Assembly: GCA_903922605.1 (NCBI GenBank)
Contig: CAIXUG010000016.1
Span: 1-64,000 of the forward strand
Source: an uncultured Verrucomicrobiota bacterium
GTDB taxonomy: Bacteria > Verrucomicrobiota > Verrucomicrobiia > Limisphaerales > UBA9464
DNA: 64,000 nucleotides
Direction of reading: 5' to 3'
In this document: positions 18,391 through 47,480 of the stretch, piece after piece
Layout: the number at the start of each line of letters is the position of its first letter
Numbering within the stretch: the stretch's first letter is position 1
Notes under the pieces: model-generated
What the model was told of the DNA's origin: nothing
Database searches by the model: none
Seen by the model: only the letters and a program-made list of their open reading frames with translations
Program-made: the position numbers and the translations under genes

Positions 18391-18391
18391 C

Positions 18392-18575
18392 AAACTGCGA
18401 ACGACGAACAGAAAACGGCGAGCGGCGGGAAACACGGACGCGCTCGGCGTCTTTGGGCGCTGAGCATTGAGCCCGACAAATCAGAACGTCCAACGTCCAA
18501 CGTCCAACGCTCAAAGGGGACGAAGGCTGCCGCATACACCACCGCGCGCTGTTCCCTGTTCGCCGTTCGCAGTTA
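18392..18575. repeat. Palindromic phrase-repeat element B
   Basis: The left arm 18392-18418 (ACTGCGAACGACGAACAG) pairs with the right arm 18549-18575 (CTGTTCGCCGTTCGCAGT) with a few mismatches. Both can be cut into degenerate heptamers such as TGCGAAC and GACGAAC. The loop holds a separate phrase, ACGTCCA repeated three times at about 18486-18509. The element fills the gap between glgA and the convergent aldehyde dehydrogenase gene. Confidence 0.7.
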
Positions 18576-18582
18576 CGGCCGC

Positions 18583-29539: not shown

Positions 29540-29632
29540 GTGAGCAGTAATCAGTAGGTCAGTAATCAGTGAAGCATCCGTGATGAGTGATCCGTTGACC
29601 TACTGATGACTGACCTACTGATTACTGCTTAC
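29540..29632. repeat. Palindromic phrase-repeat element C
   Basis: The 31-base arms at 29540-29570 and 29602-29632 match with two mismatches. The arm is built from AGTAATC-type phrases: CAGTAATCAGTAGGTCAGTA, then ATCAGT. The element exactly fills the gap between the hydrolase stop and the stop codon of the convergent fur-type gene, so it could terminate both. Confidence 0.85.
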
Positions 29633-41878: not shown

Positions 41879-43840
41879 ATGGCGACGCTCAATTCCAACA
41901 TTCCCCCCGGCCCGCTCGCCTCGAAGTGGGAGAATCACAAGTTCAGCTCCAAGCTGATCAACCCGGCCAACAAGCGGAAGTACAAGGTCATCGTGGTCGG
42001 CGCGGGTCTCGCCGGCGCCAGCGCCTCGGCCACGCTCGCCGAGCTGGGCTACGAGGTGCACAACTTCGTCTTCCACGATTCGCCGCGCCGCGCCCACTCG
42101 GTGGCCGCCCAGGGTGGCATCAACGCCGCGAAGAACTACCAAAACGACGGCGACTCCGTTCACCGGCTCTTCTACGACACGATCAAGGGCGGCGACTACC
42201 GCGCCCGCGAGTCCAACGTCCATCGGTTGGCCGAGGTCTCGGTCAACATCATCGACCAGTGCGCAGCCCAAGGCGTGCCCTTCGCCCGCGAATACGGCGG
42301 CCTGCTCGACAACCGCTCCTTCGGTGGCGCGCAGGTTTCGCGCACGTTTTACGCGCGCGGCCAGACCGGCCAGCAGCTTCTGCTGGGTGCCTATTCCGCG
42401 CTGAACAAGATGATCGGGGCCGGGGCCGTGAAATCCTACACGCACTCCGAGATGCTCGATCTCGTGGTCGTGGGCGGCCACGCCAAGGGCATCATCGTCC
42501 GCAACCTGCAAACCGGCGAAATCACCCGCCACAGCGCCGATGCCGTTGTGCTCGCGACCGGCGGTTACGGCAACGTCTACAACCTCTCGACCTACGCGCG
42601 CGGCTCCAACGTCACGGCGAGCTGGCGCGCCTACAAGCGCGGCGCAACCTTTGGCAATCCCTGCTACACGCAGATCCATCCGACCTGCATCCCCGTCTCC
42701 GGCGACTACCAGTCGAAGCTGACCCTGATGTCGGAATCGCTCCGCAACGACGGCCGCATCTGGGTGCCAAAGAAGAAAGAGGACTGCGGCAAGAACCCGG
42801 CGGACATCGCCGAGGGCGACCGCGATTACTACCTGGAGCGGATGTACTCCGCGTTCGGCAACCTCGCCCCGCGCGACATCGCCAGCCGCGCCGCCAAGTA
42901 CGTCTGCGACGAGGGCCGTGGCGTCGGCCCGACCGGCCTGGGCGTTTATCTCGATTTCAGCGAATCGATCAAGCGCCTGGGCGAGGACAAGGTTCGCGAG
43001 CGCTACGGCAACCTCTTCGCGATGTATCACGAGATCACGAACGAGGACGCCTACAAGACGCCGATGCGCATCTATCCCGCCGTGCATTACACGATGGGCG
43101 GCCTGTGGGTGGACTACAACCTGATGAGCAACCTCCCCGGCCTCTTCGTGCTGGGCGAGGCGAACTTCTCCGACCACGGCGCGAACCGCCTCGGCGCGAG
43201 CGCGCTCATGCAGGGCCTTAGCGACGGCTATTTCGTGCTCCCGAGCACCATTGCCACCTACCTCGCGACGGTGAAGGCCGGTAGCCGGCCCGCGACCGAC
43301 AAGGGTGAATTCAAGGAGGCCGAGGACAATGTCCGGGGCTTCATCCAACGCGTCACCACGAGCAGCGGCAAGCGCACGCCCGACAGCTTCCACAAGCAGC
43401 TCGGCAAGTTCATGTGGGAATATTGCGGCATGGCCCGCACCGCGGCGGGCCTGCAGAAGGGCATCCAGCTTATCGGCGACCTGCGTGAGGAATACCGCAC
43501 GAACGTGAAGGTTCTCGGCGAGGAGGGCGGCTGGAACCAGGGGCTGGAGAAGGCCGCCCGCGTGGCCGACTTCATCGAGCTGGGCGAACTCATGTGCCGC
43601 GACGCATTGATGCGCGAGGAAAGCTGCGGTGGCCACTTCCGCGAGGAATACCAGTACACCGCCGCCGATCCCGAAGTGCAGCAGGGCATCGTCAATGCCG
43701 GCGACGTGAAGCGCCGCGACGACCAGTTCGCCTTCGTCGCCGCCTGGGAATACGCCGGCGCCCCCGACAAGGCCCCGATCCTGAACAAGGAACCGCTCGT
43801 GTACGAGGAAGTGAAGATGTCGACCCGCAGCTACAAGTGA
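41879..43840 (+). CDS. sdhA: Succinate dehydrogenase/fumarate reductase flavoprotein subunit
   Basis: The 653-residue catalytic subunit oxidises succinate to fumarate with covalent FAD. The FAD-linking His is in [17 protein letters not shown]. The Rossmann motif is [19 protein letters not shown]. The substrate site has [17 protein letters not shown] and [22 protein letters not shown]. Length fits the B-type enzyme. SdhB, normally next, is displaced by a four-helix-bundle cassette that begins about six bases after this stop codon. Confidence 0.96.
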
Positions 43841-43845
43841 GCGGC

Positions 43846-44328
43846 GATTTACGAAGTGCAATTTACGATTTACGAACTGCAACGAGGCGCGATCACAACG
43901 GACGAAATCCAGCCTATGACGAGGGACGAGATGATGGCGCGCACGAAGCAATATGCGCTTCGGGTCATCAAGGCGGTACAGTCGCTGCCGGATCATCGCG
44001 TGGCGGATGTCCTCGGCAAGCAGTTGCTGCGGTCCGGCACCTCGGTGGGCGCGAACTATCGGTCGGCCTGCCGTGCAAAATCCCCGGCAGACTTCGTGAA
44101 CAAGCTCAAGATCGTTGAAGAAGAAGGGGACGAGTCCCTGTTTTGGATGGAACTGCTGGTGGAATCCGGCCTCACGTCGCAGCAAAAGCTCGGCGATCTG
44201 ATGAAGGAAGGCGACGAGATCGTATCGATCACTGTGGCCGCTCTCAAAACCGCAAGGCAGAATAATTGACTTGAGCACCCGACGCGACCCGCCTTGCGGC
44301 AGTTCGTAAATCGTAAATCGTAAATCGA
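43846..44328. mobile_element. Inverted-repeat cassette with a four-helix-bundle gene, inserted between sdhA and sdhB
   Basis: The left arm (43846-43880) and right arm (44299-44328) are built from the heptamer GATTTAC or its complement. They share a perfect 20-base pairing, 43861-43880 with 44299-44318. About 418 bases lie between, holding one gene. The cassette starts six bases after sdhA and its right arm touches the sdhB ATG. Leptospira-type 23S rRNA intervening sequences also combine this protein family with terminal inverted repeats. Mobility here is inferred. Confidence 0.6.
43916..44269 (+). CDS. Four-helix-bundle protein (S23/IVP-type, avd-related)
   Basis: The 117-residue product has the family core RTKQYALRVIKAVQSLP, LGKQLLRSGTSVGANYRSACRA and KLKIVEEEGDESLFWMELL. 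The family was first seen as the protein of 23S rRNA intervening sequences. A relative, Avd, assists retroelements by binding nucleic acid. A basic pentameric bundle is expected. It is the only gene inside the inverted-repeat cassette. A GTG at 43856 would extend it into the left arm. No good ribosome site precedes either start. Confidence 0.85.
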   Translation: MTRDEMMARTKQYALRVIKAVQSLPDHRVADVLGKQLLRSGTSVGANYRSACRAKSPADFVNKLKIVEEEGDESLFWMELLVESGLTSQQKLGDLMKEGDEIVSITVAALKTARQNN

Positions 44329-45105
44329 ATGAAAGTGACTTTGAAAGTGTGGCGGCAAAAGAACGCGACCTCCGCCGGCGAACTGAAGACTTACACGTCG
44401 CCCGATCTGAACGAGAACATGTCGTTCCTCGAGATGCTCGACGTGGTGAACGAGGACCTCGCCGGCAAGGGCGAGGAGCCGATCGCCTTCGACCACGATT
44501 GCCGCGAGGGCATCTGCGGGACCTGCTCGCTGGTCATCGATGGCAAGCCGCATGGCCCGCACCACGGCGTGGCCACCTGCCAGACCTACATGCGCAGCTT
44601 CAAGGACGGTGACGAGATCATTGTCGAGCCCTGGCGCGCGAAACCCTTCCCGATCATCAAGGATCTCGTCTGCGACCGGAAGGCCTTTGACCGCATCCAG
44701 CACGCCGGTGGCTTCATCAGCGTCCGCACCGGAGCCGCGCCGGATGCCAACAGCATCCCTGTGCCGAAGGAAGATGCCGATCTCGCCATGGATGCCGCCC
44801 AGTGCATCGGCTGCGGGGCTTGCGTGGCGGCCTGCAAGAACGCCAGCGCCATGCTCTTCGTCGCCGCGAAGGTCTCGCACCTCGGCCTCATGCCCCAGGG
44901 CCAGCCCGAGCGCTACAAGCGCGTGCGCGCCATGGTGAACCAGATGGACGAGGAAGGCTTTGGCAACTGCACCGTGACCGGCTCCTGCGAGGCGGCCTGC
45001 CCCAAGTCGATCAGCATCGACTTCATCGCCCGCATGAACCGCGACTACGGCGTCGCCCTGCTCAAGGGCGAGCCCAAGAAGGTCGCTGGCGGCGGCGCAG
45101 GCTGA
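44329..45105 (+). CDS. sdhB: Succinate dehydrogenase iron-sulfur subunit
   Basis: The 258-residue subunit carries three clusters. Plant-type [2Fe-2S] cysteines lie in [10 protein letters not shown] and the later ATCQTY. The C-terminal ferredoxin pattern [15 protein letters not shown] plus [14 protein letters not shown] holds [4Fe-4S] and [3Fe-4S]. It wires SdhA to the heme anchor. Its ATG directly follows the right arm of the inserted cassette (AAATCGA-ATG), and no Shine-Dalgarno sequence is visible, so translation may have changed after the insertion. Confidence 0.95.
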
Positions 45106-45124
45106 GCCGGATCGCTGCAGTCAA

Positions 45125-45208
45125 ACGGAGCGCAGACCGCCTGGTCCGCGAGGCGAGCTCATGTGCGGAGTGCGAAGGATTCGCGCGGACCAGGCGGTCC
45201 GCGCTCCC
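45125..45208. repeat. Palindromic element G downstream of sdhB
   Basis: GGAGCGCAGACCGCCTGG-TCCGCG at about 45126-45149 pairs with GCGGACCAGGCGGTCCGCGC at about 45184-45206. The arms are of about 24 bases, with one or two mismatches. It fills the gap between sdhB and a convergent gene and may end both transcripts. Confidence 0.75.
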
Positions 45209-45239
45209 TTTCTGCCCGGCTCTCCTGCTTCCTCGGCCT

Positions 45240-46460
45240 CTACCCTTTTGCCCGCGCGAAAAACCACGGCGTCGCCCCAATCCCACCCCAGCCGGCGGGA
45301 TTGTGGTTCGCCACAAAGATGCGCCGGAGCGTCGCATCGTGCGGCACCAGCGCCGTCCACAGCACGCCCGGTGAATCCTTCCAGCGCGCGTCGGCAGATT
45401 CACCGTCGATGCGCTGGAATTTCGCCCCCTCCACCTGCTGGTTCCACATGAAGTCGCGATTGGTCGCCACAAGCCGGGCGATGTCGTCCTTGGTAAAAAC
45501 AAGACCGTGCTCGAAGGCGTCCACGATGCCCTCGACATCGATCCCGTAGTAACCGCCGTTGGGATGCACGCCGACCCAATGTCGAGGCGAGCCGTCAGGC
45601 TTGTAGTCCCACGGACCGGCGGGATCCCAGTAGTTCCAGACAAGGAATTTGCCTCCCTCACGCGTCCGCTGGCGCGACTTCATTAGGCGAAACCACGACT
45701 CCGCCCGGGCGCGGTAAACCGGCTTCCCTGTGGCGTCATGCAACGCCAGCAGCCAGCGGGCGATGTGGTTCTGCTTGTTGTCCGGATTGGAAAAACCAGT
45801 TGTCTGACGTTGCGCGTAGCCCGCCGACCATCCGCCGGTTTTGGCATCGACGCCAAAGGCCGGCACCACCCACAGGCCGCCTTCCTTCACCTCGCGCCAG
45901 CAGCCGCGCGCATCCCACTTCTGAAACACATCCTCCGCGAGCTTCAGATATTCGGCGGATTTGCCACCCCACTTCGCCGCGAGCGCGGGGGTCTTTTTGA
46001 TGTGGACGGCCATCAGCACCATCGCGCGAAGCATCATCGCCTCGCCCAGCAGACTGTCGGCGGCGTACTCCTTGGAATCCCCGCCGCCGCCGTCGCCCTT
46101 GGGCCAGCCGAGGAAGCCGTCCGGCTCCCGCACCGCCCGACGGATGCACGAGTCCGACCAGTCCACGAAAAGCTCGATCCACTTCGAGTCACCCGTCGCG
46201 AGATGGCCGTAATAGAAGCCGTTGAGAAACGGACTCACGAGCCACCCGAGTTCCTCGCCCATCTCCTTGTCACACGCCCGGTCGCGCGCATCGTCCTGGA
46301 TTCGCCGCTCCCACCGCGCCAGCCAGTCCTTGGCGGTGACCGGGTCAATCCAGGCCGTTCCCGCAGCTGCCGCAGCAGCGAGCATCGGCCAAACTGACGT
46401 GGCGCAAGACGCCGAAGCAACGAGACAGCCCTGCAGGAATCGGCGGCGCTTCATGGACAT
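45240..46460 (-). CDS. Tat-exported protein of unknown function, possibly alpha/alpha-barrel sugar enzyme
   Basis: The 406-residue protein begins MSMKRRRFLQG, a twin-arginine motif, with a hydrophobic stretch to about residue 35. The mature part is rich in Trp and helical (FYYGHLATGDSKWIELFVDW, LLALHDATGKPVYRARAESWF). These features recall the alpha/alpha toroid of several glycoside hydrolase and lyase families, but no catalytic pair can be named. I do not recognise a precise family. Confidence 0.6.
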   Translation of the reverse strand: MSMKRRRFLQGCLVASASCATSVWPMLAAAAAAGTAWIDPVTAKDWLARWERRIQDDARDRACDKEMGEELGWLVSPFLNGFYYGHLATGDSKWIELFVDWSDSCIRRAVREPDGFLGWPKGDGGGGDSKEYAADSLLGEAMMLRAMVLMAVHIKKTPALAAKWGGKSAEYLKLAEDVFQKWDARGCWREVKEGGLWVVPAFGVDAKTGGWSAGYAQRQTTGFSNPDNKQNHIARWLLALHDATGKPVYRARAESWFRLMKSRQRTREGGKFLVWNYWDPAGPWDYKPDGSPRHWVGVHPNGGYYGIDVEGIVDAFEHGLVFTKDDIARLVATNRDFMWNQQVEGAKFQRIDGESADARWKDSPGVLWTALVPHDATLRRIFVANHNPAGWGGIGATPWFFARAKG

Positions 46461-47349: not shown

Positions 47350-47480
47350 TCAAGCGCGGAACGGGGAGCGCGGAGCGCGGAGCAGGACACGGTGGCGATT
47401 TCGCCGTCAGCGCGCGGGGTGGACGGGATGTGAAACGCTCTTTTCCGCTCCGCGCTCCGCGCTCCCCGTTCCGCGCTTGA
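47350..47480. repeat. Palindromic phrase-repeat element E, perfect 34-bp arms
   Basis: TCAAGCGCGGAACGGGGAGC, then GCGGAGCGCGGAGC (47350-47383) is perfectly complementary to 47447-47480. The inner part of each arm is tandem GGAGCGC heptamers. A 63-base loop separates the arms. It lies between the divergent phzF-type and cytochrome c genes, ending 36 bases before the latter's start. Confidence 0.9.

Follow-up and report, generated by a model that had tools for sequence, protein, structure and literature searches.

The locus analyzed here raises the question of how a gene of the S23/IVP family, enclosed by inverted arms, came to lie between sdhA and sdhB, and what kind of element it forms there. 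The window, i.e. the whole stretch of DNA that was analyzed, is 64,000 nucleotides long and belongs to a 5.3 Mb genome of 90 contigs from an uncultured Verrucomicrobiota bacterium (referred to as G000). The identities proposed in the initial annotation for sdhA, sdhB and the enclosed gene were borne out: NCBIfam models recognize SdhA and SdhB on the two sides, and the enclosed gene matches PF05635 and TIGR02436 (Table 1). These two were the only matches of the enclosed gene in family searches, which returned neither a transposase nor a Y1 domain, and an Rfam search of positions 43000-45500 gave no match. Its start is most likely the ATG at 43916, as judged from the homologue in genome G016; a longer open frame reaches a GTG at 43856, inside the left arm. 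An AlphaFold single-sequence model of the protein was unusably poor (mean pLDDT 48.9).

Table 1. Features of the sdhA-sdhB junction, in positions of the window.
Feature	Position	Strand	Evidence
sdhA, upstream host gene	41879..43840	+	NF005749, bits 1108 (NCBIfam)
Left arm, five tandem 7-nt units	43846..43880	+	GATTTAC GAAGTGC AATTTAC GATTTAC GAACTGC
S23/IVP four-helix-bundle gene, 117 aa from the most likely start (ATG 43916)	43916..44269	+	PF05635 4e-15, TIGR02436 2e-22, PDB 2RLD 2.5e-19
Right arm, four tandem 7-nt units, inverted orientation	44299..44326	-	repeat analysis
Predicted RNA closing stem, S23 gene in loop	43845..44327	+	RNA fold, z -3.72
sdhB, downstream host gene	44329..45105	+	NF005746, bits 423 (NCBIfam)

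The perfect 20-base inverted repeat reported for the arms is present at 43861-43880 / 44299-44318. The edges of the cassette had been placed six bases after the sdhA stop and directly before the sdhB ATG. The first of these positions is right, the left array starting at the sixth base past the TGA (43838-43840); at the other edge two bases remain between the right array and the ATG (44329). Folding at the RNA level, also suggested at the outset, agrees with the predicted structure, in which 43845-43854 and 43862-43880 pair with 44299-44327 to form a stem of 29 bp with one 7-nt bulge. The predicted fold of the cassette has a dG of -194 kcal/mol, and 0 of 100 shuffles were equally good. Inverted arms are present, and the gap sequences are too diverged for any target-site duplication to be read. 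Directly 3' of sdhB lies another inverted repeat, GACCGCCTGGTCCGCG (45135-45150 / 45184-45199).

The arms were compared with chance by means of an arm score, defined as the best left/right pairing between 260-nt flanks. The sdhA-sdhB cassette scores 21.5, compared to a mean of 9.3, a 99th percentile of 15.0 and a maximum of 20.0 for 1427 placements drawn at random elsewhere in the window, and to 9.4, 14.5 and 17.0, respectively, for 834 such placements at related loci. At the scale of the genome, ATTTACGATTTACG with at most one mismatch gave 81 matches, against 0 for the same pattern read backwards. When periods of 4 to 13 were searched in the 64-kb window under a strict rule, only period 7 gave arrays; there are two of them, neither in the cassette.

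Whether other S23 genes also possess inverted arms was examined in the own genome and in three wider samples. The own genome contains eight PF05635 genes, and the arms expected around the other copies are largely there: seven of the eight loci, which differ from one another in their unit, reach a score of at least 15, and the eighth (L006) has 14.0, close to the 99th percentile of the background. The near set is made of 19 genomes (own and related) with 75 matches over the family cut-off, five weaker ones being left out, and at 73 of the 75 loci the flanks were long enough for the arm test. The mean score of these 73 loci is 20.1 against 9.2 for the null; 57 score 15 or more, 16 score under 15, and 55 beat all 20 cross-pairs. 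The far set consists of the best 80 of 553 confirmed relatives from a scan of named genomes and covers Cyanobacteria, Acidobacteria, Bacteroidetes, Nitrospirae, Planctomycetota, Thermodesulfobacteriota and other phyla. For these best 80 of 553 the mean is likewise 20.1, with a null of 10.9; 54 loci score 15 or more, 26 score under 15, 36 beat all 20 cross-pairs, and several Acidobacteria loci have flanks without arms. The null of the far set is raised and its cross-pair test is harder because arms are alike across loci. Finally, the S23 protein of the window type has a match in 150 of 288 genomes of the phylum. The 29 other loci among the matches listed have a mean of 20.8 against a null of 10.6; 24 score 15 or more, five score under 15, and 16 beat all cross-pairs.

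The unit of which the arms are built differs between S23 families. The canonical family, common and present in many phyla, has AGRAGNN with period 7 (57 sites); the window-type family has GATTKNN, also with period 7 (29 sites); a third family has a unit of period 6 (six sites); and in Bacteroidales relatives of the far set (best 80 of 553) the unit spacing is mostly 8-10. The GATTTAC units pointed out in the initial annotation do build the arms of the cassette, but they are not a single oddity, each S23 lineage having its own unit. S23 identity and arm similarity were compared at 136 loci scoring 15 or more, using pairs from different genomes and not from the same site cluster. The same-site exclusion was based on looser site clusters, the only effect of which is fewer pairs (n=8983), and some far or phylum pairs may share a site. 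The Mantel r is 0.563, a value reached in 0 of 2000 permutations. As far as sequence can show it, the arm unit depends on the S23 protein family.

This relation bears on the most ordinary explanation of the locus, namely an operon gene in a repeat-prone gap where slippage makes the heptamers and hairpins keep them, S23 being irrelevant. Heptamers occur in excess in many bacteria, and slippage is put forward as their origin in the accessible portions of two articles (PMC4692102, PMC4679880). However, the unit sequence tracks the S23 family across sites while the reverse-complement control of this correlation is flat; the units mix fixed and freely varying positions, unlike slippage products; and the arms around S23 are far above background. 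We regard slippage as a very improbable account.

A second property of the arms is the number of their units. The Xanthomonas S23 protein is a homopentamer in its solved structure, according to the consulted part of PMC4990558, and both PDB matches, 2GSC and 2RLD, are entries with five chains. That each subunit might read one unit was an idea formed before the units were counted, the arm sequences having already been seen by then. With a unit model fitted on the same arms that were counted, the number of units per arm peaks at five in the canonical and window-type families. With no gap allowed, exactly five units were counted in 16-20 of 54 canonical left arms (four units in 5-6, six in 3-6) and in 15-18 of 54 canonical right arms. 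The corresponding window-type counts at three thresholds are 12, 9 and 5 of 26 left arms and 11, 13 and 9 of 26 right arms; at the strictest threshold the left arms peak at four instead (9/26). A second peak, at two units, appears in canonical arms (13-15 of 54 on the left) and probably corresponds to loci with a spacing other than seven. The right arm of the sdhA-sdhB cassette itself has four units, not five. In the own genome, the GATTTAC arrays at 18 loci without a gene contain 3, 4, 5, 6 and 7 units in 2, 6, 6, 3 and 1 cases, respectively.

The history of the insertion site was approached through the sdhA-sdhB junctions of relatives, a comparison recommended at the outset. SdhB is present in 38 of 39 genomes, own included, and 30 listed loci were compared. 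The gap measures 136 nt or less at 24 of the 30, and is therefore too short to house a cassette. Among the six filled gaps, two contain S23, in G000 and in G016, which belongs to a different family of the same order and has GATT-type units on both sides; the four others (G004, G027, G023, G014) hold another gene, which we take to be ORF6N-like. With S23 in two genomes and these presumably ORF6N-like genes in four, one sdhA-sdhB gap has thus been in repeated use. A GATTTAC-type right array is retained ahead of the sdhB ATG in G004 and G027. The S23 proteins of G000 and G016 at this site are sister proteins with 64% identity, SdhA and SdhB being 66% and 68% identical, and both inheritance with many losses and repeated arrival are possible. 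The initial annotation had named two findings that would speak against a cassette, the conservation of the gene between sdhA and sdhB across the phylum and the absence of arms around other copies; since S23 occupies 2 of 30 junctions and other copies have arms, neither describes what is seen. As a further observation on these gaps, an unrelated ORF of 188 aa in G004 (L068) and 180 aa in G027 (L072) lies beside the ORF6N-like gene, and a GTCACAATTTGTGAC-type palindrome is repeated within coding sequence of the G004 gap.

Sites common to more than one genome by both flanks number 12 and include all eight S23 sites of G000. As each of these eight is common to at least one other genome, S23 sites appear in long-term occupancy with turnover and patchy presence, and no fresh insertion was caught. 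At the five S23 sites common to G000 and G004, the flanks are 88-95% identical in DNA; the S23 DNA is 77% and 78% identical at two sites, 89% and 96% at two, and alignable over about 100 nt only at the fifth. At the L006 site the S23 of G000 is 67% identical to its counterpart in G014, a distant genome, against 50-58% for those found within its genus; by eye the arms, too, are closer to G014. Comparison of the sequences thus indicates that, at fixed intergenic sites, the S23 gene and its arms change together as a single block, apart from the flanking DNA. In same-site pairs, own arms outpair swapped arms in 52 of 60 cases (mean 22.3 vs 15.5): in 17/17 below 60% S23 identity, in 21/22 at 60-75% and in 14/21 at 75% or more. 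Much of the divergence at common S23 sites is compatible with vertical inheritance. The S23 dN/dS ratio could be computed for 10 of 13 pairs and ranges from 0.06 to 0.23; this purifying selection implies that the S23 protein is in use.

The orientation of S23 follows that of its neighbors in most cases. With a codon model, S23 is in sense to both neighbors at 52 of 57 loci of the near set, 18 of the 75 being not called. With a cruder rule, this applies to 41 of 54 called loci in the far set (best 80 of 553), distributed between 31 of 35 loci with arms and 10 of 19 without. Called phylum loci with arms are in sense to both neighbors in five of eight cases, the three others having an opposed downstream gene.

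In genome G015 we found seven close S23 copies (L062, L116, L120, L123, L124, L126, L135), several of them with internal stops. By eye, L062 and L124 consist of S23 with hexamer arms inside a larger unit with terminal inverted repeats of about 30 bp. These copies were considered as proof that S23 with its arms transposes, and this was rejected: in L062 and L124 S23 is a passenger riding a larger MITE- or IS-like element, so G015 is no evidence of self-mobility.

Arrays also occur without a gene. The 81 GATTTAC-type matches in G000 fall into 36 places, the sdhA-sdhB cassette being one. Of the 18 gene-less arrays viewed, five, not counting L018, are accompanied by an inverted partner with a score of at least 14.5; the partner of L018 adjoins the array directly and may be a separate palindrome. 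At about 10 of the 18 loci, by eye, a GATTTAC arm stands opposite a unit array of another family. One hairpin (L027) is present in G000 and G004, and only a short gap is found in G001, G005 and G007.

Further gene-less repeats were seen in the window, with other units. A perfect 34-bp inverted repeat of GGAGCGC units lies between two genes (47350-47383 / 47447-47480); G004 is without it in such form, and similar arms are found at many places of the genome. A perfect 21-bp inverted repeat is made of AGTAATC/AGTAGGTC units (29543-29563 / 29609-29629), and an intergenic GAATTTC heptamer array has an inverted partner (2396-2422 / 2488-2499). By eye, an outer inverted pair of GAACGGC-like units (18391-18440 / 18550-18580) contains an AACGTCC array (18485-18514), as if a hairpin had entered a hairpin.

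Gene-less hairpins recall REPINs, and Y1 (RAYT/IS200-like) transposases could move arrays and cassettes in trans, S23 being cargo or accessory. Y1_Tnp is indeed present in 19/19 genomes, own included, and some gene-less hairpins resemble inverted doublets, one of them being insertion-polymorphic. Yet the units, which were compared with S23 only, follow the S23 family, and Y1 peaks in S23-poor genomes (20 Y1 and 0 S23 in G008, 26 Y1 and one S23 in G010). Because Y1 is commonest where S23 is rare, RAYT-driven spread is a weak rival, which we consider improbable.

The abundance of arrays was related to S23 at the scale of the phylum, by comparing the 36 genomes in which the best window-type S23 match is a close one (E no higher than 2.5e-27) with the 252 others. 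At least one (GATTNNN)4 array is found in 36/36 of the former against 71/252 of the latter when kinship is ignored, an association due in part to the cassettes' own arms being counted. Eight or more matches occur in 22/36 against 30/252, again ignoring kinship, and the reversed control gives 1/36 against 23/252 for the same number. This control, (TTAGNNN)4, has 67-193 matches per strand in G205, G270 and G117, perhaps reflecting another unit family. Of 14 array-rich genomes picked for having no close window-type S23, nine have another S23 over the cut-off and five have none; G043 has 107 (GATTNNN)4 matches and no S23. In G107 and G143, two genomes rich in these arrays and of the same genus as G043, the window-type S23 contains an internal TAA, suggestive of a gene that decayed while its arrays persisted.

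The genes around gene-less arrays were called in 16 cases: same direction in 12, convergent in three, divergent in one. An operon-only RNA element was rejected as an explanation of these arrays because three of the 16 called loci lie between convergent genes. The same count bears on another reading, in which S23 is a host-serving RNA-binding protein acting as a post-transcriptional regulator, the arrays at the starts and ends of genes are its operators and the cassettes are autoregulated members rather than selfish elements, as in a TRAP- or Csr-like regulon. Purifying selection on S23, its mostly sense orientation, the dispersed arrays near gene ends and a site occupancy common to genera and families are all in line with such a role, and translational regulation was suggested for TAACTGA heptamers by MacGregor 2015, in the portion of that article consulted. 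A regulator agrees less well with the three of 16 arrays between convergent genes, with a site presence that varies among relatives and with cassettes that diverge as blocks. We judge this reading unlikely.

With a little more confidence than doubt, we interpret the cassette as an IVS-like element located between operon genes, whose S23 pentamer would read five tandem units. In this element a single S23 gene would be framed by two inverted arms, ideally with five units of about 7 bases per arm, and the whole would be set between co-transcribed genes rather than within 23S rRNA. The S23 homopentamer would bind the array with one unit per subunit, as a ring on tandem repeats. TRAP, a ring that reads tandem triplets, offers a likeness for an S23 pentamer on arrays. 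Once transcribed, the two arms would base-pair as a long stem, with the S23 frame in the loop and with the sdhA stop and the sdhB start just outside, and a host double-strand RNase may cleave this stem as in rRNA IVS. Gene-less arrays would be footprints, or else non-autonomous derivatives that the same S23 proteins recognize. Movement would probably occur at the DNA level, as a move or a conversion carried out by host enzymes, with no reverse transcriptase.

A wider interpretation, put forward tentatively and with more doubt than belief, is that S23 and short-unit arrays form one bacteria-wide system, in which a pentamer reads five family-specific units of fixed spacing. Cassettes would be its autonomous members, hairpins its non-autonomous ones, rRNA IVS a side branch, and the heptamers of Xanthomonas, Nostoc and Beggiatoaceae footprints; the whole would spread while encoding neither a transposase nor an integrase nor a reverse transcriptase. 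According to the part of the literature consulted, S23/IVP proteins have solved structures and no known function, and the origin of bacterial heptamer repeats is without an accepted account. A unit specific to each protein family, and as many units in the array (five) as subunits in the protein, make one question of both puzzles: whether the pentamer binds five units, and whether it does so on RNA or on DNA. If true, this would account for the persistence and turnover of S23 genes within essential operons although they bring no recombinase, and S23 would represent a novel class of protein that reads repeats by a simple code.

Intervening sequences of 23S rRNA do not all encode S23p. The IVS of Coxiella burnetii is 428 nt long, with a 28-bp stem, a sense S23 ORF and a fixed site, as given in the consulted part of PMC4990558. 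The cassette resembles it, on that same partial basis (PMC4990558), by its single sense S23 ORF, its terminal inverted repeats and its fixed site, and also in dimensions (predicted stem of 29 bp vs 28 bp, length of about 483 vs 428 nt). It differs in lying between sdhA and sdhB, outside rRNA, and no rRNA match was found at any of the far S23 loci (best 80 of 553). A further, possible difference lies in its arms, built of tandem 7-nt units that go with the S23 family.

Diversity-generating retroelements (DGR) provide a second comparison, Avd and PF05635 being alike in sequence and structure in the excerpt consulted of PMC10053308. On this resemblance S23 could be the partner of a reverse transcriptase, as Avd is in these retroelements (PMC10053308, same excerpt). 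However, RVT_1 is absent from G000 and from seven genomes of the same genus, all of which bear S23 (some of the genomes searched being incomplete), in contrast to DGR. It occurs in 6 of 19 genomes, three of which (G008, G011, G018) are without S23. Retro-mobility of the cassette was rejected, with no RVT_1 in the genus, and we find a retroelement relative barely conceivable.

The likeness with REPIN/RAYT, in the portion of PMC3116915 consulted, lies in a repeat-flanked gene, in dispersed gene-less inverted doublets forming hairpins, and in repeats associated with a protein family. Dispersed inverted doublets without a gene are present here as a minority of the arrays viewed. The difference, set against the same partial description, is S23 instead of a Y1 transposase and tandem heptamers instead of palindromes. 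Unlike an insertion sequence, the cassette encodes no transposase. Heptamer repeats described in the accessible text of PMC4692102 are GGGAATC of Xanthomonas and GGGGA(C/T)T of Nostoc, with 70 and 75 inverted heptamer pairs in two Xanthomonas genomes, and TAACTGA of Beggiatoaceae is described in that of PMC4679880. As far as these texts go, such heptamers resemble the arms as intergenic 7-nt tandem arrays, often by gene starts, and by eye GGGAATC is one base from a canonical S23 unit. The word S23 has 0 occurrences in PMC4692102 and PMC4679880, where heptamers are unlinked to S23. More generally, no report tying PF05635/S23 to heptamer arrays or operon cassettes was found in the consulted parts of the open PMC literature, a scope that includes PMC4679880, PMC4990558, PMC8700078, PMC4692102, PMC10053308 and PMC3116915. 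By the features tested, the cassette is not an rRNA IVS, a DGR or a RAYT/REPIN, and the recurrence of S23 cassettes with protein-matched arms suggests an undescribed family of gene-carrying elements.
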